A DNA stretch of 35,060 bases from an uncultured Actinomycetes bacterium. Lineage in GTDB: Bacteria > Actinomycetota > Acidimicrobiia > Acidimicrobiales > RAAP-2. Positions 165 to 30,942 of the stretch are shown one piece after another. Every line of letters begins with the position of its first letter. The first letter of the stretch is position 1. The stretch covers positions 1 to 35,060 of the forward strand of contig CAIKFN010000125.1 in assembly GCA_903826715.1 (NCBI GenBank), read 5' to 3'. Position numbers and translations under genes: made by a program. The notes below the pieces were generated by a model that searched no databases, was not told the origin of the DNA, and saw nothing but the letters and a program-made list of their open reading frames with translations.

Positions 165-503
165 CTAATGATCACCGAGACGTGTTGTCGGGTCATAATC
201 AATCTCATCGAGAGCTACGTCACCATGAATCAACATGTGAGTTAGTGACGTCGTTGGGACCCACACCTCTTTTATCTCATCCCAAGTGTCTTCGAAGCCT
301 TCTCCGCTTCTATAGAAATCAAGTGGTGTCTCTTTGCCATCCAATGAAACCGTCTGGAAGTATCGAGGTCTCTGAATTTGATCATATATCCGGGTAGAGA
401 TTTCGTTGATTTGCTCTGGCGTCATGTTCTCTAAATCACTCGGTAGTTTTGCCATGTACAGTTTCTGCTCCTTTTCGGGTTCTAGAGACTCATTCTTCGT
501 CAT
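165..503 (-). CDS. Small uncharacterised protein (112 aa), paralog of the 2223-2456 product
   Basis: ORF; TAATG overlap with upstream gene at 503; shares the pattern Y/F-Q-x-V-S-x-D-G ... W-x-P ... D-Y-x-P with the 2223-2456 product. Confidence 0.65.
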   Translation of the reverse strand: MTKNESLEPEKEQKLYMAKLPSDLENMTPEQINEISTRIYDQIQRPRYFQTVSLDGKETPLDFYRSGEGFEDTWDEIKEVWVPTTSLTHMLIHGDVALDEIDYDPTTRLGDH

Positions 504-1375
504 TACTGTGGCTCCGTCGATGCAGGCAGTACCTGAATAACTTGCGTAACTGGTGCTGCTCCGGGCTGACTGATCGTTACCGAACAGCTATTGCCTGTGA
601 AGGTAATAGCTGTGCCATCTGAACTACATGATCCAGACGCGGTGACCGTGATTGGGCCTGCTTCAGGTGTTCCTGCCGCGAATGTTGGGGTGTAGATAGA
701 GTTCCCAGAATTATCAACAACAACATTTGAAGCGCTTGGCACTGCTGTGAACGAAAGGGTGTTTGGCGCATAAACAACAGATGTAGGCATGCTGTAATCA
801 GTTGTTGCTGTAGGCAGCTGACAGCTCTGACCCAAATCAGGAATATGGCCGAGAACGCTGCACCAGATGATTCCATTATCGGCATAGTCAGATCCGTTAG
901 GAGTAGCAGGAGTCACTGGTGGCGTAGCAACAGGTGCTGGAGTCGACTGAGGTGCAGGCGCGCTCACAACCGGAGGGCTCACCACGGGTGCTGGAGTAGT
1001 TACCACTGGCACTGGAGTTTCAGATACTGACGCCACTGGAGCAGTCTGTGTCACCGGTGCTGCTGATGTTGGAATAGCGACAGCACTGGCTGCAGCCGGA
1101 GAGCTCTCTACCGTCGGTTCAGTAACTGGAGGCGCAGTTTGAACAATTGGTGTTGCAGTAACAATTGGTGCTGGATGGTTCATCCCAACATTCGTTAGGT
1201 AAAACTCAGCAAGTGTTGCGGACATCGTTACTGGTACGTATGTATTTAGTGAATGTGCAACAACAGTTTTGAGCGGTGTTGCCTTATGAATACCTGATCC
1301 TGCATACGCTGGAGATCCTAGAAATAGCAGGGCCAACGAGAGGCCAGTAATAAATACGCTTTTCTTGCTATTCAT
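503..1375 (-). CDS. Secreted protein with signal peptide and Pro/Ala/Val/Thr-rich low-complexity region
   Basis: N-terminus MNSKKSVFITGLSLALLFLGSPAYAG resembles a Sec signal; central PVVTTPAPVVSPPVVSAPAPQSTPAPVATPP. Confidence 0.75.
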   Translation of the reverse strand: MNSKKSVFITGLSLALLFLGSPAYAGSGIHKATPLKTVVAHSLNTYVPVTMSATLAEFYLTNVGMNHPAPIVTATPIVQTAPPVTEPTVESSPAAASAVAIPTSAAPVTQTAPVASVSETPVPVVTTPAPVVSPPVVSAPAPQSTPAPVATPPVTPATPNGSDYADNGIIWCSVLGHIPDLGQSCQLPTATTDYSMPTSVVYAPNTLSFTAVPSASNVVVDNSGNSIYTPTFAAGTPEAGPITVTASGSCSSDGTAITFTGNSCSVTISQPGAAPVTQVIQVLPASTEPQ

Positions 1376-1898
1376 TAGTTAATCCTTCCTCATCATTAAT
1401 CGGAATTGAATCACTTTCTTCAATGTACACCCGTGTTTCAGCTCTGTACTGATCTCTACAGGTGTTCTCTGGAATGTTCATCTCCCACGTCTGAATCACT
1501 ACTGGATTAGATGGAGCCTCACCAAGAACATCTGTTATGACCTGCTTCATCATTTTGATGAGCTCGATGAGTTCTGCAACATTTGCTGCCTCAAAGGTCC
1601 AGTTCGGGTTCAAGTACTCAACTGGTTCGCTAAAGCCCAGCTGCAGCAGTTGCTCTTCTGCAACAGGGCTCAGCGCTACTGAGTCTCCAATGTTGAGGTT
1701 AGAGATAACTTCTCCAATTACGTGGCCATTTGAATCAGACCAGAACTGAACGTACCGGTGATCTTCAAATTCAGCAAGAGCAATGTGATTCTTGCCAGTC
1801 GTGGCCAACGCTCCAAGCAGCTCTGGCATGTTGGTCAAGAATGACTGGACCGTTGACGTAACTCCATTTTTGTAACCTGAAAGTTCAATATTTCCCAT
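1368..1898 (-). CDS. TY-Chap/YbjN-like (T3SS-chaperone-fold type) protein
   Basis: Pattern HRYVQFWSDSNGHVIGEVISNLNIG...LSPVAEEQLLQLGFSEP...NW resembles actinobacterial TY-Chap domains; overlaps the next gene by 8 bp. Confidence 0.6.
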   Translation of the reverse strand: MGNIELSGYKNGVTSTVQSFLTNMPELLGALATTGKNHIALAEFEDHRYVQFWSDSNGHVIGEVISNLNIGDSVALSPVAEEQLLQLGFSEPVEYLNPNWTFEAANVAELIELIKMMKQVITDVLGEAPSNPVVIQTWEMNIPENTCRDQYRAETRVYIEESDSIPINDEEGLTNE

Positions 1899-1987: not shown

Positions 1988-2146
1988 ATGAACGTACCGT
2001 GCATTCCTCAACAAACTCCCTGTGGGTGTGGGACGCCAAGATTCCAAGATCAGACTTGCCCATTCTGCAACACTCAAAATCTTGTTTGCTGGGCGGCAAT
2101 GGTGTACCAGTGTTCAAGGTGTGGAGCTCCGAACTCAACTTCATAG
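1988..2146 (+). CDS. Zinc-ribbon microprotein (about 52 aa)
   Basis: MNVPCIPQQTPCGCGTPRFQDQTCPFCNTQNLVCWAAMVYQCSRCGAPNSTS: CxC, CPFC and CSRC motifs. Start chosen inside the 1940-2146 ORF. Confidence 0.5.
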   Translation: MNVPCIPQQTPCGCGTPRFQDQTCPFCNTQNLVCWAAMVYQCSRCGAPNSTS

Positions 2147-2222
2147 TTTTTGCATTAGCAAGTTTGACTATATGTCACACTCCCCCGTCATACTTATGTT
2201 GTCTAAGAAAGGACTTCATAGG

Positions 2223-2456
2223 ATGAGGGACGAAAAACCAAACTACGTTTATTACCAAGTTGTTTCTATTGACGGAACACCAAGAGCATATTTTCGAACA
2301 ATTGATGGATACAAAAAACCTGAGTATTGGGACTACACTCATCAAACCTGGCTCCCAAGTGACTCGTTTATTTCATATCATGCCAAGGGAGACCCATTCC
2401 TTGAAAGGCTTGACTACAACCCAAAGGATAAATCCTCGGACAATTCTGAAGGCTAA
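2223..2456 (+). CDS. Small uncharacterised protein, paralog of the 165-503 product
   Basis: MRDEKPNYVYYQVVSIDGTPRAYFRTIDGYKKPEYWDYTHQTWLPSDSFISYHAKGDPFLERLDYNPKDK aligns with the 165-503 product; AAAGGA upstream of the start. Confidence 0.6.
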   Translation: MRDEKPNYVYYQVVSIDGTPRAYFRTIDGYKKPEYWDYTHQTWLPSDSFISYHAKGDPFLERLDYNPKDKSSDNSEG

Positions 2457-3066: not shown

Positions 3067-3918
3067 TTAGCAAGGGCTCCATCGGGCGTTTGGAACCCAG
3101 CCAAATAAGACGACTTCGGTGTCTTCTGGAGTTTCACCGAGATCTGCTGCCCACGAGTACATAGCGTAGAGATAGCGACCATATTCAGTGGCATTTTCCG
3201 TTCCACCCTTTATTAGAACGCCAAGATTTGCCGCAAGCCATTTTGAAACAATGCTGTCAAAAACCAATGCACGGTGCCTATTTGGAACATCCGAGAAAAA
3301 GAACAAGTCTTTGGTCGAAAAAGCAGATCCCAATCCATCAAGCCTCAGCCTTGAATGTCGAGGAGCAAATTCCTTAAAGGCGGGAATGATTCCTTGACTT
3401 CGAAGCAATTGAGCGGCGAGTTGTAATGAGATGGGCGCGTTCATGGTCAACAGGTGATTATTGGTTCGAAATGGCCCAAAGCCAGCCTTTCCGAATCCCC
3501 ACATCATTGAAATGAGATGGGCGTCAAATGCATTATTTGGTGAAAGGTGCGCAAGACTGCCCAGGCTTGTTGCATGGTCACGATCGATCATCGTCCAGGA
3601 ACGACCATTGGAACAGCGTATTACAGGGCACCCAGCCAAGAGTGCTGGAACAGTTGGAAACGTCGGGCTCCATAAATTGATGTCGACTGGGCTTGCAAAC
3701 TGAGGAGGACGACCCTGAGCGACCCAGGATGCATGCTGGACAGCTAATTGTCTTGGTACAAACTGAGAGAATGCTGTTGTAAAATTTAACTGGCATTTAT
3801 GGCAAACATGCATTGCATTTCCAGCTGCGGTCATTGCCTTATGAGCGCTACACAATGACTTTGCACAAAAAGAACATTCACTGATCTTGATACCTGAACA
3901 GTTGGTTTCATCACACAT
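3067..3918 (-). CDS. N-terminal zinc finger plus region resembling OGG-fold DNA glycosylase
   Basis: N-terminal CDETNCSGIKISECSFCAKSLCSAHKA...CHKCQ; C-terminal MWGFGKAGFGPFRTNNHL ... RLRLDGLGSAFSTKDLFFF ... ALVFDSIVSKWLAANLG resembles actinobacterial OGG-like proteins (recalled, not searched). Confidence 0.6.
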   Translation of the reverse strand: MCDETNCSGIKISECSFCAKSLCSAHKAMTAAGNAMHVCHKCQLNFTTAFSQFVPRQLAVQHASWVAQGRPPQFASPVDINLWSPTFPTVPALLAGCPVIRCSNGRSWTMIDRDHATSLGSLAHLSPNNAFDAHLISMMWGFGKAGFGPFRTNNHLLTMNAPISLQLAAQLLRSQGIIPAFKEFAPRHSRLRLDGLGSAFSTKDLFFFSDVPNRHRALVFDSIVSKWLAANLGVLIKGGTENATEYGRYLYAMYSWAADLGETPEDTEVVLFGWVPNARWSPC

Positions 3919-3930
3919 TATAAAATCCTC

Positions 3931-4824
3931 CTAACTGCATTGCAGTACAACCCAAACACGTCTGAAATCTTTTTTAGCAAAATCAAGACGGTGAATTATG
4001 AAATAAATCTTCCCGCAGTCTCCCCACATCATTTCTTCTGTTCCACCTCTGTAGTCTGAACCAAACTGAGCCAGAAGTACCCAGTCTTTCGGATCACTGC
4101 GTACGTCACTTGATATGTTATCTAAGTTTTCTGGCTCTGCGGACCGAGCAGCATCAATTTCCTTCAGAGTTGCTCTGTAGCCCTCACTCAAGGGATCTCT
4201 CGACTGGATTCTGTCTGCAAATCCAAACAACCAGTGATCACTTCTTATATGGCTACTCCAACCATAAGAATATTCATAGCCTGTATCGTCATCAACATCA
4301 AAGGAATCCCAGTCAACGTCAGAATACGTTGGCAGCATCAGTTCGGGGATAAATGAAACCTTTTTTTCTTTTGTAATTATCTTGTAACTATCCCAAACAT
4401 CTTTGATGTATTTCTTGATTACTTTGGCCTTCGGCGGGATAAGTGAATTATCTTCAACAAAAATAACTTGAGCTGCTCCTGCATTCGTTTTGCTGAATCC
4501 CCACGATTGTTTGCTGTCGTAAAAGAAGAACAAAACTCCTTTTGACGGAAGACCAAGCTCCTTTGCATTTGGAATTTCACTTAAATCCATTTGTGCAATG
4601 AATGCCATCGGTTCACCCTGATAAATAGGCCACTCTATGTCGCTAGGCAGATTCGGGAATCCACCAATCTTGCTAATAACTTCAGCAGATTTAGCTTTTG
4701 TCGCGCTTACCATTTGAATAGACCACTTTGCATTATCGAGGATTTCGTCGACGAATACTTTGTCTAGACCGCCCCATTGAAAATTATTCTTCAATGCCTT
4801 TTTCGCTTTGGTTGTATTTAGCAT
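3931..4824 (-). CDS. DUF1963 (YwqG-like) protein
   Basis: KIGGFPNLPSDIEWPIYQGEPMAFIAQMDLSEIP ... GVLFFFYD is typical of DUF1963. Confidence 0.85.
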   Translation of the reverse strand: MLNTTKAKKALKNNFQWGGLDKVFVDEILDNAKWSIQMVSATKAKSAEVISKIGGFPNLPSDIEWPIYQGEPMAFIAQMDLSEIPNAKELGLPSKGVLFFFYDSKQSWGFSKTNAGAAQVIFVEDNSLIPPKAKVIKKYIKDVWDSYKIITKEKKVSFIPELMLPTYSDVDWDSFDVDDDTGYEYSYGWSSHIRSDHWLFGFADRIQSRDPLSEGYRATLKEIDAARSAEPENLDNISSDVRSDPKDWVLLAQFGSDYRGGTEEMMWGDCGKIYFIIHRLDFAKKDFRRVWVVLQCS

Positions 4825-4858
4825 GCGTCAGACCTCGAATATTTCAGAAATTCACTCA

Positions 4859-5260
4859 TTAGCAATCAACCTCTTCTCTTGGAAAAAATTCATCTCCGGA
4901 TTCAGGAAGCATGTGTCCATAAACTCGACCTGGAACTGTCCCCCTGTACCAAACAACTCTCCCCTGGCCTTCAAGCCAGTCAACCTTCTCGTTCGAACCA
5001 ATCATTCCATCGATAGCGCGATCGCCTGCGAAATGTTCACCATTCTTGGTAATCGAGGTCTGTAGTCCAAGGCGACTCAGTCTTTCGTCCCAATGATCCC
5101 ATCCTTCAGACATTGAACACCACATCATTAGGTTGTCGTCCTCCCAGAATGATGGATTCTCAAGTTTTAGGTTTTCTAGCTCTTCCAGAAGTACAGGACT
5201 TTTTCTCCTAAGTGCAGGTTTCGCAATTATGTAACTCGTGAATGATGTTAAGAGGGCCAT
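4859..5260 (-). CDS. Hypothetical protein
   Basis: 133-aa ORF starting at the stop of the upstream gene (1-bp overlap), implying an operon. Confidence 0.55.
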   Translation of the reverse strand: MALLTSFTSYIIAKPALRRKSPVLLEELENLKLENPSFWEDDNLMMWCSMSEGWDHWDERLSRLGLQTSITKNGEHFAGDRAIDGMIGSNEKVDWLEGQGRVVWYRGTVPGRVYGHMLPESGDEFFPREEVDC

Positions 5261-5727
5261 TAGAACTCACCTTCTTCGTTGGGTCCAGCATCAAAATCAG
5301 GGTCAATTGTTGTGCCACAGTTTCCACAGAACTTCTGCGCCATTGCAATTTCACCACAGACATTGCACATTGGAGAGATGACTCCCATCGCGACTACAAA
5401 TTTCGCAAGCTGCTTCATCTTCTTTGCGCGAACGTAAACCTTGATTGTCTCGTTAATCCTTGAATCGTCAAACACAGCAATAAGGCCCTTCTCGGGCCAA
5501 GTGAAACATACCGTTGTTTGGCGAAACTGGTCAACATGAGACGCAACCAACTTTCTATCCGGATTAAACAATTCAGCTTTCGCAAGTGCAGCTGAAGCAG
5601 ATGGCATAAACATCACCATGCTGTGCTTGCCGGCAGATGAATTTTTAACTAATTTCATTATCTGCTTGCGACGTTTCTTATCCAGCGCACTGAGCGCTGG
5701 GAACCTGTAGTTGTTTTCATAACTCAT
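5260..5727 (-). CDS. Protein with C-terminal zinc ribbon
   Basis: C-terminal MCNVCGEIAMAQKFCGNCGTTI (two CxxC pairs). Confidence 0.7.
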   Translation of the reverse strand: MSYENNYRFPALSALDKKRRKQIMKLVKNSSAGKHSMVMFMPSASAALAKAELFNPDRKLVASHVDQFRQTTVCFTWPEKGLIAVFDDSRINETIKVYVRAKKMKQLAKFVVAMGVISPMCNVCGEIAMAQKFCGNCGTTIDPDFDAGPNEEGEF

Positions 5728-5881
5728 TGTTGAATCTTTCTTCTAAAAACTAAAAGCCACTTTGACTAGTTGACTGACCTCATTTTGATAGTACGTGGCC
5801 TAAATGATCCTTGCCCTAAAGCGTGTGATGAATAAATGATATTTGTGCAAAAAGCCTGGAATTAAGGGGAAATCTTCTTTC

Positions 5882-7015
5882 TTAGAGGTAGGTTCCAATT
5901 GTTTCAACCTTCTCAGTGGTCATTGACTTTGTTTCGCCGAGCTGAACAAAGATTTCAGCGAGGCTCATCTCACTCTTAGCCGGCCCAAATTCACCCAAGC
6001 GCTCTGAGGCTTCGCTCACAGTGAACTTTCCAAATTCCACCTTCTGCAGTGTGCGACCGGGACGAAGTAGTGCTGGGTCCAGCGTTGACATCTGGCTGTT
6101 GGTTGAAATAAGAACCATAATTGACTTCGAGCTAGCAAGAAGTCCGTCTCCCATAGAAAGAAGACGACCAAGTCCTCCAGAGCGTGTACCAGAGACCACA
6201 TCGTCCGGCACATCTTCGAGCACCAGAACAAGAGTCTTATCACGAGGAGCAGAATCGATCAATCGAACTAAGTAACTAGTCCTCCCATCGCCGAAGAGCA
6301 TTTCTGGGTCTGCAATAACTGCAAACTTGGCCCATGGCTCCCACTCAGTGATCAAGGCTTGTGTAAAACGAGTCTTTCCAGTTCCTGGAGTTCCTTGAAA
6401 AATGACAAGGCGTGGATCACTGGACTCAACATCACGCTTGTATGTTGCCAACTTCTCCAGTTGAGCACGAGTCGCTTCAGGATAGTTCTTGGAAATGCCC
6501 CTCCAAGGAAGTGCTTTGGCTTTGGCATACGAAGGGTATTCCTGGTCGCTAAAGATCTTGTAGTTAATTTCCTTTTCCAAGTTTGGCTTGACCTGTAGTC
6601 CAATCGTGAGGCGCTCTACCATGTCTGTGCTGCGCTCCATAGAGGTTGAGCCAATGAAAACCTGAAGGGACGATGTGCCAATAACAATGTGCGCGTACCA
6701 CTCATCGAGCTTGCCTTGGATAAGCAAGAAGCGAACGCTTTCAGTTTTTAGTTCACGAATAATTTCTGAGTTAGGAAGAACAAAAGAAAGAGACTGATCT
6801 GTTACAGGCTTATTCACATCAAGATCAATGTTCGCAAACGCAAGGTGCTTAATAGTGCCTTCAGCGAATAGTTGAATAAACCCACCTTTAATAACATCAT
6901 CGGGATCGGTCTTGCGCTCAATTGCGTCAAGACTTACGCGAAACTTCGTGTCTATTTCAGTGCTGTTAGTAAACAACTTCATGAAACTCTGATCTACATC
7001 CTTAACTGCTTCCAT
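5882..7015 (-). CDS. AAA+ ATPase with uncharacterised N-terminal domain (possibly DUF5925-like)
   Basis: Walker A GTPGTGKT, Walker B-like KTLVLVLEDV, ISTNSQMSTLDPALLRPGR (sensor 1/arginine-finger region). Confidence 0.85.
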   Translation of the reverse strand: MEAVKDVDQSFMKLFTNSTEIDTKFRVSLDAIERKTDPDDVIKGGFIQLFAEGTIKHLAFANIDLDVNKPVTDQSLSFVLPNSEIIRELKTESVRFLLIQGKLDEWYAHIVIGTSSLQVFIGSTSMERSTDMVERLTIGLQVKPNLEKEINYKIFSDQEYPSYAKAKALPWRGISKNYPEATRAQLEKLATYKRDVESSDPRLVIFQGTPGTGKTRFTQALITEWEPWAKFAVIADPEMLFGDGRTSYLVRLIDSAPRDKTLVLVLEDVPDDVVSGTRSGGLGRLLSMGDGLLASSKSIMVLISTNSQMSTLDPALLRPGRTLQKVEFGKFTVSEASERLGEFGPAKSEMSLAEIFVQLGETKSMTTEKVETIGTYL

Positions 7016-7038
7016 ACCTGCCCGCTCCTCTTCTTCTT

Positions 7039-7056
7039 GCTAGGCGACGACCTAGC
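7039..7056. promoter_or_regulatory. Inverted repeat GCTAGG-CGACGA-CCTAGC between divergent operons
   Basis: Perfect 6-bp arms, 6-bp spacer, 24 bp upstream of the AAA+ start codon. Confidence 0.4.
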
Positions 7057-7238
7057 GACATGTGGGAGTTTTAAATTACGACCGGGGTGTGACATGAAAG
7101 TGGATGCTCACCAACTACCGCATATGTAGGGCTTTTGGTGAATTACGACTTAAAAGTCATGTTTCCAGGGGGCGGTGTCACAGGCCACCGGCATACTGGA
7201 TACAACGACCTGCGGGAAGAAAAAGTTAGGAGTAGATC

Positions 7239-7772
7239 ATGTCAATGCAACCAGGACCGTTCAATAATCAATCTTGGCAGCAACCTCCTTACGTCAACCA
7301 ACCATGGCAACAACCACCTTATGGTTATCAGCCATGGGTGCAACCTCCTAATTTCCGCCAACCACGAAGTGGCTTTGGGCAGCTAGAAAACATTCTGTTG
7401 CTACTCATTGGACTCAACTGGCTCAGCAAGCGCACTGTTGAAAAGAAGCGGCGTCCATTACTAGCGCAGGGCAACAGCATCGCAATCACTGTTGTTGATT
7501 TCACAATTCTTGACTACTCAACACTTCGTGTGTTCCTCTCTGCAACAAACCGCGGTGATCTAAACGGCGAGCGTGATTTTGAAATCTTTGTTGACGCTCA
7601 AATTAACGGTCATTCAACTGGTGACGGACGAATGAAAGGGACTATTCGCCTCGCAGCCCACGAACGTACAAATCAGTATTTAGACGTGTACGTTTCAAAC
7701 TCCCAGGCAGTCAATGTTCGCTTGCTTAACCAGGTTTCTTTAGTTCTAGACACAGAATGGAGCTCGAAATGA
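7239..7772 (+). CDS. Protein with N-terminal Q/P/W-rich repeats and C-terminal beta-rich-looking domain
   Basis: SWQQPPYVNQPWQQPPYGYQPWVQPPNF repeat followed by a hydrophobic segment LENILLLLIGLNWLS and a domain with LRVFLSATNRGDLNGERDFEIFVDAQINGHSTGDGRMKGTI. Confidence 0.75.
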   Translation: MSMQPGPFNNQSWQQPPYVNQPWQQPPYGYQPWVQPPNFRQPRSGFGQLENILLLLIGLNWLSKRTVEKKRRPLLAQGNSIAITVVDFTILDYSTLRVFLSATNRGDLNGERDFEIFVDAQINGHSTGDGRMKGTIRLAAHERTNQYLDVYVSNSQAVNVRLLNQVSLVLDTEWSSK

Positions 7773-8710
7773 GCAACGACACACTCGCATCAGACCAGCC
7801 ACAGAATGCAGAGCAAGCGCAACACAACCTGGTGGTTCTTTCATGCATCCTCAGTGGTGACTACGTGACGGGCATTTGGGCGGAGGACTTCTTTAATACT
7901 CGACCTTCAAGAAGTATTCGCAATCAAGCACTTGACCTACGCCTCAGAAGAAAAGCACACGAGCGTCTCAGGCAATTTGAACAAGCATTTGATGTAGCGA
8001 AACAAGAATTATCACTTTCAAAAACTATTGAGTATCCAATCTGGCGAGTGAGTAGCCTTCGCAGTGCTGGATACTTCTATCTACGCAATGGTCGACCAGA
8101 TCTAGCTCGTGACGCATTCAACGAAGCAATCGACACCACATCTCGGTTGGTGCGCCATGAAAATCAGATGTTGAGGGTGTGGATAGCGTACGAACGCTCC
8201 AAGTGCACACTGGCGAGCGTCGAATCAGACTTGGCTCTTGATGATCCCAATGCAGCTGTTAAGCACATTGAGCAATTTGAGACAGAACGAGAATATTTCT
8301 CCTACTGGAAGTCAAACCTCTTTCAGGCACGGGCACGACTAGCGGCCTACCAACAAAAGCACGGCCAAGATCTGACCCATGGTCAAACTGCGCACTACTG
8401 GCTAGATAGTTCACTTGAGGCTTCTAAAACAGTTGACGAGTGGAGTGGAACCATAAGCGTGCGCAATGAAATTCTTCATCTGTGCAACCGTGAAATAGAG
8501 AGTGTCTTTCACAAATCTCCAACACTCAACTATCCCAATAAGCATGTTTTATACAATCCCATTCGCCAAGCTCAAGCTCTGCGACTAAGAGCTGAACTGT
8601 CTCATAATGCATCAGACATTTCGAAATACACGCTAGAAGCACTAAAGATCGAAGACGAATTATTTCTCGACTGGCCCTACTACCGAGCCGAACTCTGGTT
8701 CCTCGCTTAA
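7769..8710 (+). CDS. Helical-repeat (TPR-like) protein
   Basis: ATGA overlap with the upstream stop; segments such as YPIWRVSSLRSAGYFYLRNGRPDLARDAFNEAIDTTSRL look like TPR. Confidence 0.65.
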   Translation: MSNDTLASDQPQNAEQAQHNLVVLSCILSGDYVTGIWAEDFFNTRPSRSIRNQALDLRLRRKAHERLRQFEQAFDVAKQELSLSKTIEYPIWRVSSLRSAGYFYLRNGRPDLARDAFNEAIDTTSRLVRHENQMLRVWIAYERSKCTLASVESDLALDDPNAAVKHIEQFETEREYFSYWKSNLFQARARLAAYQQKHGQDLTHGQTAHYWLDSSLEASKTVDEWSGTISVRNEILHLCNREIESVFHKSPTLNYPNKHVLYNPIRQAQALRLRAELSHNASDISKYTLEALKIEDELFLDWPYYRAELWFLA

Positions 8711-8722
8711 AGAAAGAAGAAA

Positions 8723-9199
8723 ATGTTCAACGTCAAACTCCCTAGAGGTTACATTCCTGTTTCAGTAGTTCTATTTCTTGTACTAGTTCTCAGCGAATGG
8801 ATTCAATCAGCCATTCCGTATGGAACTGCATTTATCCTCTTCAACATATTCCTTATTGTTGGAAGAATCTTTTCTGAAATCTGGCTCGTTGCTGGTGGTA
8901 TTGGACTTGGGCTGGCTCGTGCAGTGGTGTGCTTTAAATGTCTGCGCGCACCTAGAAGATTTAGCGACAAGCTCAGGGTGGTTCGCTGGATCAAATCAGC
9001 GTTTTGTGTTCTTGCGGCAATGATCGTCTATCTAATTGGCCAATACTTAACAAACTTTATTTTGGGGAGTTCGAACTTCGGCTACTACGTAGGTGTCTGG
9101 CTGGGCTCTGAATTCAGTCTCTTCCTACTATGGGAATGGGTTGTTCGACGGGGATTTCATAACAGGTTCAAAAAGCTCACCGAGGCAGTGTACGAATAA
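8723..9199 (+). CDS. Integral membrane protein
   Basis: Several hydrophobic segments (VSVVLFLVLVLSEWI, AFILFNIFLIVGRIF, FCVLAAMIVYLIGQYL, YYVGVWLGSEFSLFLLW). Confidence 0.7.
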   Translation: MFNVKLPRGYIPVSVVLFLVLVLSEWIQSAIPYGTAFILFNIFLIVGRIFSEIWLVAGGIGLGLARAVVCFKCLRAPRRFSDKLRVVRWIKSAFCVLAAMIVYLIGQYLTNFILGSSNFGYYVGVWLGSEFSLFLLWEWVVRRGFHNRFKKLTEAVYE

Positions 9200-9621
9200 T
9201 GAACGTTTCAGAATTACGAGAATGTCCAATTTTTCAGGCGAGACCCTTGATGTATGAACGATTCAACGCAAATGCTGGTCCATTTGTTCAGTATCAAGAA
9301 GTTCCGATAACCAATGAGCTTCACCTCACGTTTGCTGATGAAGTTGAAAACTCAACTTTAGAAGGTTGGCTCGTCGAAACTAATGGTCTGGTGACTTCCA
9401 TGTACTCGGTTGGCTCTCATGAAGGAGACGCTCTTGTCTTCTTTGACTCAGTGCAAAACTTTACCCCAGGAAATGAAATGACTATTTCTCGATATGTCAC
9501 AGTTGGATCAGATAATGAGAAGGTAGCCGCTCAACTGATGGAGAAAATAGAAGGTTTTTTTGCTTCACCGGACCTATTTTCACAAACATGGTTCGATAAC
9601 AAAAGGATGAAAGATGAGTGA
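9199..9621 (+). CDS. Uncharacterised protein, tandem paralog A
   Basis: TAATG overlap with upstream gene; N-terminus ECPIFQARPLMYERFNANAGPF resembles the next gene. Confidence 0.65.
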   Translation: MNVSELRECPIFQARPLMYERFNANAGPFVQYQEVPITNELHLTFADEVENSTLEGWLVETNGLVTSMYSVGSHEGDALVFFDSVQNFTPGNEMTISRYVTVGSDNEKVAAQLMEKIEGFFASPDLFSQTWFDNKRMKDE

Positions 9622-10009
9622 CCTATTAGATGAATACCCACTTTATTTCGCAATTCGTGAAATGCACCAAAAATTTAACGAGAACAGTGGTGCATTTTCA
9701 TGGCTGGGGTTCTGTATGGACTCAGCAGGTTTTAGACAGGAACTTATGGAGAATCAAGAATTTGAGTTAATTGGATCAGTATCAGACAAAAGACGAAGAA
9801 CCACGTCGCTTTTTCTTAAAAAGACCACACAAGCAATGATTCTCATCTGCGAAGAAGACTCTCACAATCCACCTGATGCACCTAAAGGTAGCAATAAGGT
9901 CACAATTAGAGCTCATTCATTCGAAGAAATGAATGCAGTTGTCGCATTGAATAACCCAAGAACGAGAGAAATAGAAAATTGGTTAATTGATCAATCTGGA
10001 TCAGAATGA
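9614..10009 (+). CDS. Uncharacterised protein, tandem paralog B
   Basis: Overlaps upstream gene by 8 bp; N-terminus EYPLYFAIREMHQKFNENSGAF. Confidence 0.65.
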   Translation: MSDLLDEYPLYFAIREMHQKFNENSGAFSWLGFCMDSAGFRQELMENQEFELIGSVSDKRRRTTSLFLKKTTQAMILICEEDSHNPPDAPKGSNKVTIRAHSFEEMNAVVALNNPRTREIENWLIDQSGSE

Positions 10010-10045: not shown

Positions 10046-10546
10046 ATGAACACCACTAAGAAGACACTCGTTATTACTTTCGCTCTAGTAATGATATCGC
10101 AACTCCCCTGCGCTGGTGCCCAACGCGATCCGGGACTTCCTAACCCGCAAGTAACTCCTGGGGCAATCAATCCAGCCGTGAAGCAATCGAACATCTATTC
10201 AACAATCTGTGTATCTGGATATACAAAGACCATTCGACCACCCTCTTCGTATACAAATCACATCAAGCATTCGCAACTCGATAGTGGGTACAACTACAGG
10301 GGCGACACAAACGCTTCTGATTACGAAGAAGACCACCTTGTCCCCCTTGAGGTTGGCGGAAACCCAAGTTCTATAAAGAACCTTTTTCCACAGCCTTGGC
10401 TCGTCACCTGGAACGCAGGAAAGAAAGACCGACTAGAGAACAAGATGCATTCTCTTGTATGCAGCGGAGCCATTTCACTCGCCGCAGCACAAAAGGTGTT
10501 TATGACAAATTGGATCGCTGGATATCAGAAATACTTCTTGAAATAA
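10046..10546 (+). CDS. Secreted HNH-type (His-Me finger) nuclease, copy 1
   Basis: Signal peptide MNTTKKTLVITFALVMISQLPCAGA; motif YEEDHLVPLEVGGNPSSIKNLFPQPW; paralog at 30445-30942. Confidence 0.8.
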   Translation: MNTTKKTLVITFALVMISQLPCAGAQRDPGLPNPQVTPGAINPAVKQSNIYSTICVSGYTKTIRPPSSYTNHIKHSQLDSGYNYRGDTNASDYEEDHLVPLEVGGNPSSIKNLFPQPWLVTWNAGKKDRLENKMHSLVCSGAISLAAAQKVFMTNWIAGYQKYFLK

Positions 10547-30444: not shown

Positions 30445-30942
30445 ATGAAGACTTTTTCGAAAACAGCGCTGATTTCAACAGCTCTTGTGCTCGGACTCCA
30501 GGTTCCTGGATTCGCAACGTCACGCGATCCCGGGCTCCCCAACTCATCTGTAACGCCTGGAGCCACCAACCCCCTCGTGACCCAGTCAAACATTCACTCA
30601 ACCATCTGCGTCTCTGGATACACCAAAACGATCAGGCCGCCCGAGTCATACACCTACAAGCTCAAATACACCCAACTTGACAGTGGATACAACTACAAGG
30701 GCAACACGAGTACCTCTAACTACGAAGAAGATCACCTTGTTCCGCTCGAAGTCGGTGGCAATCCAGCGTCAGTGAAGAATTTATGGCCTGAGCCATGGTT
30801 AGTGACATGGAATGCCGGTAAAAAAGATCAACTCGAGAACAAGATGCATTCTCTTGTGTGCAGTGGCGCTATTTCACTCGTCGCAGCACAAAAGGTATTC
30901 ATGACTAACTGGATTGCTGGATACCAGAAGTACATTCAGTAG
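30445..30942 (+). CDS. Secreted HNH-type (His-Me finger) nuclease, copy 2
   Basis: Signal-like N-terminus; YEEDHLVPLEVGGNPASVKNLWPEPW; highly similar to 10046-10546 product. Confidence 0.82.
   Translation: MKTFSKTALISTALVLGLQVPGFATSRDPGLPNSSVTPGATNPLVTQSNIHSTICVSGYTKTIRPPESYTYKLKYTQLDSGYNYKGNTSTSNYEEDHLVPLEVGGNPASVKNLWPEPWLVTWNAGKKDQLENKMHSLVCSGAISLVAAQKVFMTNWIAGYQKYIQ

Follow-up and report, generated by a model that had tools for sequence, protein, structure and literature searches.

A DUF5925-AAA ATPase with a predicted proteasome-docking tail in an actinobacterial genome, and its relatives in mycobacteriophages

The activators of the bacterial proteasome listed in a 2025 review are Mpa, PafE/Bpa and Cpa. 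GQYL is the docking motif of Mpa/ARC and Bpa, its Q being freely mutable (PMC6017811, PMC12288473), and in Bpa the Y and L of this motif contact R26 and K52 of PrcA (PMC11953334). Bpa was itself discovered through a search of M. tuberculosis for GQYL tails.

The stretch of DNA analyzed here (the window, 35,060 nucleotides) is the entire 35-kb contig G000:C125 of an actinobacterial bin, G000, which comprises 1.27 Mb and is 70.6% complete. The GC content of the window is 45.6% vs 48–51% in sampled G000 contigs, with tetranucleotide correlations of ~0.66–0.83; these values were judged acceptable, and contamination of the bin was rejected. On the minus strand, at 5882..7015, the window encodes a 377-aa DUF5925-AAA ATPase that ends in GTYL. 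We consider it likely, on sequence grounds, that this product is an unfoldase that would dock on the proteasome through its G-x-Y-L tail. Literature searches retrieved no report recognizing the DUF5925-AAA family as a proteasome partner.

The ATPase, its tail and the host proteasome

Both Pfam (PF00004, 4.1e-10) and AF2 identified a single AAA domain in the protein (residues 204–329, positions 6029..6406, delimited by Pfam and AF2/Foldseek). The original prediction had named an AAA+ ATPase here, correctly, and had overlooked the DUF5925-like N-terminal domain and the C-terminal GTYL tail. The AF2 model of the AAA domain showed an AAA fold with a pLDDT of 81, and its Foldseek matches in the PDB comprised Bcs1 as the best (6.6e-12), 26S Rpt subunits and mycobacterial Mpa (1.8e-8). 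The Walker A motif, the sensor Asn and the RPGR Arg finger occupy invariant columns of the homologue alignment; the pore-loop aromatic is conserved in only part of the Acidimicrobiales homologues. The N-terminal DUF5925 domain (residues ~26–168, positions 6512..6940), a probable substrate-receptor domain, was modeled by AF2 as alpha-beta-beta4-alpha with a pLDDT of 82. The window protein scores 20.1 bits against PF19347 (DUF5925), for which the curated cut-off is 27, and all six of the homologues aligned with it match the same family at E<0.01 (best 4.2e-53). The model of this domain had no significant match in the PDB (best E 0.013); the domain may have a YbjN/TY-chaperone fold, in which the order of elements is similar.

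The GTYL sequence (residues 374–377, positions 5885..5896) stands at the exact end of the protein, and the C-terminal tail is disordered in the AF2 model. All of the first six homologues aligned end in G-x-Y-L (6/6), and in a larger set a Y-L end is shared by all actinobacterial homologues that score above 300 bits. Of the 28 clusters formed at 60% identity, 22 have a Y-L end and 19 have G-x-Y-L, while the approximately 18 residues before the tail (positions -5 to ~-22) are unconserved across clusters. The Y-L tail is maintained over tree branches of more than 2 changes per site. A chance origin of the tail is excluded, because none of the other neighboring ORFs analyzed as a control ends in GxYL (0/6729); the FtsH-type AAA proteins encoded by these genomes lack this end too. 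A penultimate C-terminal Tyr suggests docking but does not suffice for it. DUF5925-AAA proteins with a canonical docking tail occur in Streptomyces, Nocardia, Streptosporangiaceae and Acidimicrobiales. One genome (G494) carries two copies of the AAA gene (G494:C97 and G494:C151; L166 and L175), with the ends KSYL and RFGFHQ.

The host encodes the corresponding protease. Contig G000:C106 carries, in order, the end of mpa (..GTGQYL), dop, pup, prcB, prcA and pafA; mpa and prcA were compared with PDB sequences, and the other names were assigned by gene order and sequence. In an alignment with M. tuberculosis PrcA, the host PrcA keeps both pocket residues, R26 and K52. Across genomes, prcA was found in 50/51 of those with a Y-L-tailed AAA protein, the exception (G386) being 81% complete, vs 2/7 of those with a non-Y-L homologue above 140 bits (Fisher p 2.7e-5, phylogeny ignored). 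In G180 and G219, prcA is present although the tail is GF. In a phylum sample of 297 genomes, in which the base rate of prcA is 125/297, all Y-L carriers have prcA (17/17), and the AAA carriers that lack prcA also lack Y-L (3/3). Independent changes of the tail numbered three on one tree and five on a tree including phages, with a poorly resolved backbone, and an independent-pairs test of tail vs prcA, with only 2–3 pairs, was powerless. By the prcA count (50/51), the Y-L tail is restricted to proteasome-bearing organisms, with few independent contrasts.

In the mechanism we propose, the gene would encode a ring-forming, classical-clade AAA ATPase whose flexible G-x-Y-L tail docks it on the host 20S proteasome, where it would open the gate and feed substrates in, presumably with unfolding. 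The DUF5925 domain may serve as the substrate receptor, replacing the coiled coil and OB domains of Mpa. With DUF5925 in their place, recruitment, and thus the unfoldase, would probably be Pup-independent. Counting against the mechanism are the small number of independent tail changes, the GF tails of the prcA-bearing G180 and G219, the absence of a prcA hit in G386, the incomplete conservation of the pore-loop aromatic and the PF19347 score of the window protein, which is below the cut-off.

Phage homologues and the GF tail

DUF5925-AAA homologues are encoded by the mycobacteriophages Myrna (L198 2039–3259), ScoobyDoobyDoo (L199 2204–3394) and Phabba (L200 2039–3262), with E values of 8e-48 to 2e-43 against a Streptomyces member. 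All three end in VGQYL (3/3), and their genes are flanked by PRPP-kinase-like and nicotinamide phosphoribosyltransferase genes. Among IMG/VR contigs, Y-L tails occur in several groups (L209, L210, L222, L228, L233, L243 and L246). Some actinophages, too, most likely carry a gene for a proteasome-docking unfoldase, and with the GQYL-tailed homologues these phages may use the host proteasome. Literature searches on DUF5925 or GQYL in phages found no paper; within the literature searched, the mycobacteriophage homologues would be the earliest case of phage proteins with predicted docking on a bacterial proteasome. In 119 genomes of a genus that is probably Mycobacterium, only a single weak and partial DUF5925 match was found, and this near-absence may explain why the family was missed by the search that led to Bpa.

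A different ending prevails elsewhere. Most homologues of proteasome-free bacteria and of phages with Gram-negative hosts end in (I/V/M)GF; homologues without Y-L, mostly of this type, are found among L201, L203–L206 and L213–L286, and in the bacterial L131, L134, L074 and L077. Ends with a GF motif were found in homologues of Myxococcus, Xanthomonas, Pseudomonas and Acinetobacter phages and of one gut phage, and an Erwinia phage homologue, a weak match, has neither a GF nor a Y-L end. The pattern [ILVM]G[FL] lies within the last 12 residues in 36/56 non-Y-L clusters vs 1/30 Y-L clusters; it was present in 1.4% of control ORFs, and shuffles gave at most 5.

Clp ATPases dock on ClpP with a range of tripeptides, and those known so far sit in internal loops, not at C-termini. 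The (I/V/M)GF tail, which we take to resemble these tripeptides, is unusual in its position, and this counts against the possibility, which we regard as doubtful, that the tail is a general protease-docking device, with GF homologues on ClpP by way of an IGF-like tripeptide and GxYL homologues switched to the 20S. In its favor are the distribution of [ILVM]G[FL] between the two sets of clusters and the LGF/IGF loop by which Clp ATPases reach ClpP (PMC10149685). Such a device would be compatible with, not opposed to, docking of the Y-L homologues on the 20S proteasome. A broader proposal joins the two: DUF5925-AAA proteins may be protease-partner ATPases common to bacteria and phages, with a swappable tail that directs G-x-Y-L members to the 20S and (I/V/M)GF members perhaps to ClpP, and with Myrna-group phages commandeering or competing for the host proteasome in the course of infection. 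We offer this tentatively, our own judgment inclining slightly against it. The contrast between the two tails offers a natural experiment in which a change of protease partner by an unfoldase can be followed.

The protein could also be a Bcs1-like remodeler that makes no use of the proteasome, its Y-L tail being intramolecular or docking elsewhere. Bcs1 is the top PDB match of the AAA domain, and the ATPase core needs no proteasome, because homologues without Y-L thrive in proteasome-free bacteria and phages. Against this stand the match to the Mpa/Bpa motif, located at the exact C-terminus, and the way in which the tail tracks proteasome-bearing hosts, both among bacteria and among phages of known host; we therefore regard a remodeler of this kind as unlikely.

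The divergent locus and its neighborhood

The ATPase gene is one of ten ORFs within 3067–10009, five per strand, which diverge from a 223-bp gap at 7016–7238; all were present where the original prediction had placed them. On the minus strand it is accompanied by g4 (5260..5727), a 155-aa orphan by Pfam with a C-terminal zinc ribbon of two CxxC motifs; g3 (4859..5260), a hypothetical protein without a family in family searches; g2 (3931..4824), a DUF1963 protein (PF09234, 6.5e-40); and g1 (3067..3918), with an N-terminal Cys/His cluster preceding an OGG-like domain (PF21790, 9.2e-30). The zinc-ribbon, DUF1963, OGG-like and zinc-finger calls previously made for these products agree with our results. 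The plus strand carries g6 (7239..7772), with a Q/P/W-rich N-terminus and a hydrophobic segment; g7 (7757..8710), in which Pfam detected weak TPRs, as the earlier TPR-like call implied; g8 (8723..9199), a predicted membrane protein and an orphan with no match in family searches; and the orphans g9 (9199..9621), with nothing over a family cut-off, and g10 (9614..10009). The last two had been described as tandem paralogs; the paralogy is weak, with similarity over just 24 aa (E 4e-4). By Pfam and family searches, the majority of the ten genes are orphans.

Overlaps of 1–8 bp had been claimed for most plus-strand junctions; in fact g6 and g7 overlap by 16 bp, g7 and g8 are 12 bp apart, g8 and g9 share 1 bp, and g9 and g10 overlap by 8 bp. 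In the minus arm, also described as translationally coupled, three junctions are gaps (154, 34 and 12 bp) and one is an overlap of 1 bp, and because of these gaps coupling of the AAA gene to g4–g1 is not evident. Applied to the locus, PADLOC found no defense system, and PHROGs profiles gave AAA matches and nothing else.

Elsewhere the AAA gene stands alone. In five genomes of the same genus (G013, G016, G498, G494 and G459), it is solitary between an S-adenosylhomocysteinase-like gene (ahcY) and a PIG-L/mca-type deacetylase gene, the neighbors being named by sequence; G459 shows the deacetylase side alone, and G013 has one extra gene in between. Its neighbors are different again in G490/G491 and G393/G394. 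At 22 loci from other actinomycete families, the AAA gene itself is the only widely recurring sense gene within 9 kb, and neighbor recurrences confined to Streptosporangiaceae represent local synteny. Across families, more than 60 other loci yielded no conserved multi-gene neighborhood round the NTPase. The other nine genes were absent nearby, with the exceptions of the TPR/QPW genes in G218 and an OGG-like ORF in G013, and a conserved two-arm operon was rejected.

The TPR gene occurs in 3/172 family genomes (G000, G218 and G395), each time with a Q/P/W/N-rich partner; g7 matches two copies in G218 (2e-15 and 9e-7) and one in G395 (1e-15), and the architecture of g6 is repeated upstream of the TPR gene in both. 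In G218, the TPR/QPW pair and the AAA gene share one 11.7-kb contig, with the AAA gene on the opposite strand, and no AAA match was found in the G395 genome. The linkage of the AAA gene to the pair is probably real and non-random, with two genomes, G000 and G218, as its basis. Speculatively, the pair, alone in the arms in having a linkage to the ATPase, could act as an adaptor module. An IS30-type transposase adjoins the pair in G395 (L176 274–3897), which suggests that the pair is mobile. The OGG-like ORF of G013, 2.5 kb from the AAA gene, is a weak hint of another linkage. The match of g4 among the 172 family genomes runs through the zinc-ribbon end only, the protein itself being confined to G000 (1/172); a g4 relative in G218 was rejected at a pairwise E of 0.08. 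Between the AAA gene and the TPR arm, G218 has further small plus-strand genes without known identity (L140 5191–7304), and an HhH/OGG assignment for L140 2016–2759 was rejected, Pfam support being absent. The remainder of both arms is a lineage-specific variable region.

Further genes of the window lie outside the two arms. A TY-Chap3 protein (PF22552, 2.9e-8), of a family known from ADP-ribose conflict loci (PMC9503650), is encoded at 1368–1898 (-). Two ORFs at 10046–10546 and 30445–30942 (+) are a close paralogue pair for a secreted protein with a EEDHLVPLEVGGNP motif, probably HNH/DUF1524-like. Short orphan proteins at 165–503 (-) and 2022–2456 (+) resemble diverged paralogues on opposite strands.

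The original prediction described a two-arm AAA+ locus as a candidate conflict or stress system with the layout of NTP-dependent conflict systems. The AAA gene is indeed the interesting element and is not part of a recognized system, but the evidence favors a proteasome-docking unfoldase over a conflict-system ATPase. That the ATPase works together with the zinc adaptors, the OGG-like enzyme, the TPR scaffold and the membrane protein as a two-arm, NTP-dependent anti-phage or stress system would fit the divergent, closely packed arms, the variable and orphan-rich region, the shared contig in G218, the transposase in G395 and the TY-Chap3 protein, but is decidedly unlikely given an AAA gene that is solitary elsewhere without a conserved neighbor across families, the rarity of the TPR pair and g4 among family genomes, and PADLOC matches limited to generic AAA and one weak zinc ribbon.

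Comparison with known proteasome activators

If the proposed docking is true, the DUF5925-AAA family would constitute a second ATP-driven, probably Pup-independent, entry to the bacterial proteasome. It resembles Mpa/ARC as an AAA ATPase in which a flexible linker leads to G-x-Y-L, in the same proteasome-bearing organisms, and Mpa is among its PDB matches. In contrast to Mpa/ARC, the window protein shows neither coiled coil nor OB interdomain nor beta-grasp in the secondary structure of its AF2 model, its gene lies outside the Pup-proteasome locus, and it scores 15.5 bits against TIGR03689, for which the cut-off is 504.75. It is probably no Pup receptor, because it lacks the Mpa domains, the Pup locus and the TIGR03689 score.

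Bpa/PafE shares its docking tail with the DUF5925-AAA family. Bpa, however, is an ATP-independent four-helix-bundle dodecamer found in every proteasome-bearing actinobacterium, whereas the DUF5925-AAA family has a sporadic distribution and, judged by sequence, depends on ATP. Bcs1-type AAA ATPases share the E-D order of Walker B and match the AAA domain best in structure, but the window protein has another N-domain and a G-x-Y-L tail and lacks a transmembrane segment. Cpa is likewise a non-Mpa AAA ATPase tied to the bacterial proteasome; it is Cdc48-like and without a Y-L motif, whereas the window protein has the motif, and the tandem AAA pair of Cpa/Cdc48 contrasts with the one AAA domain of the window protein.
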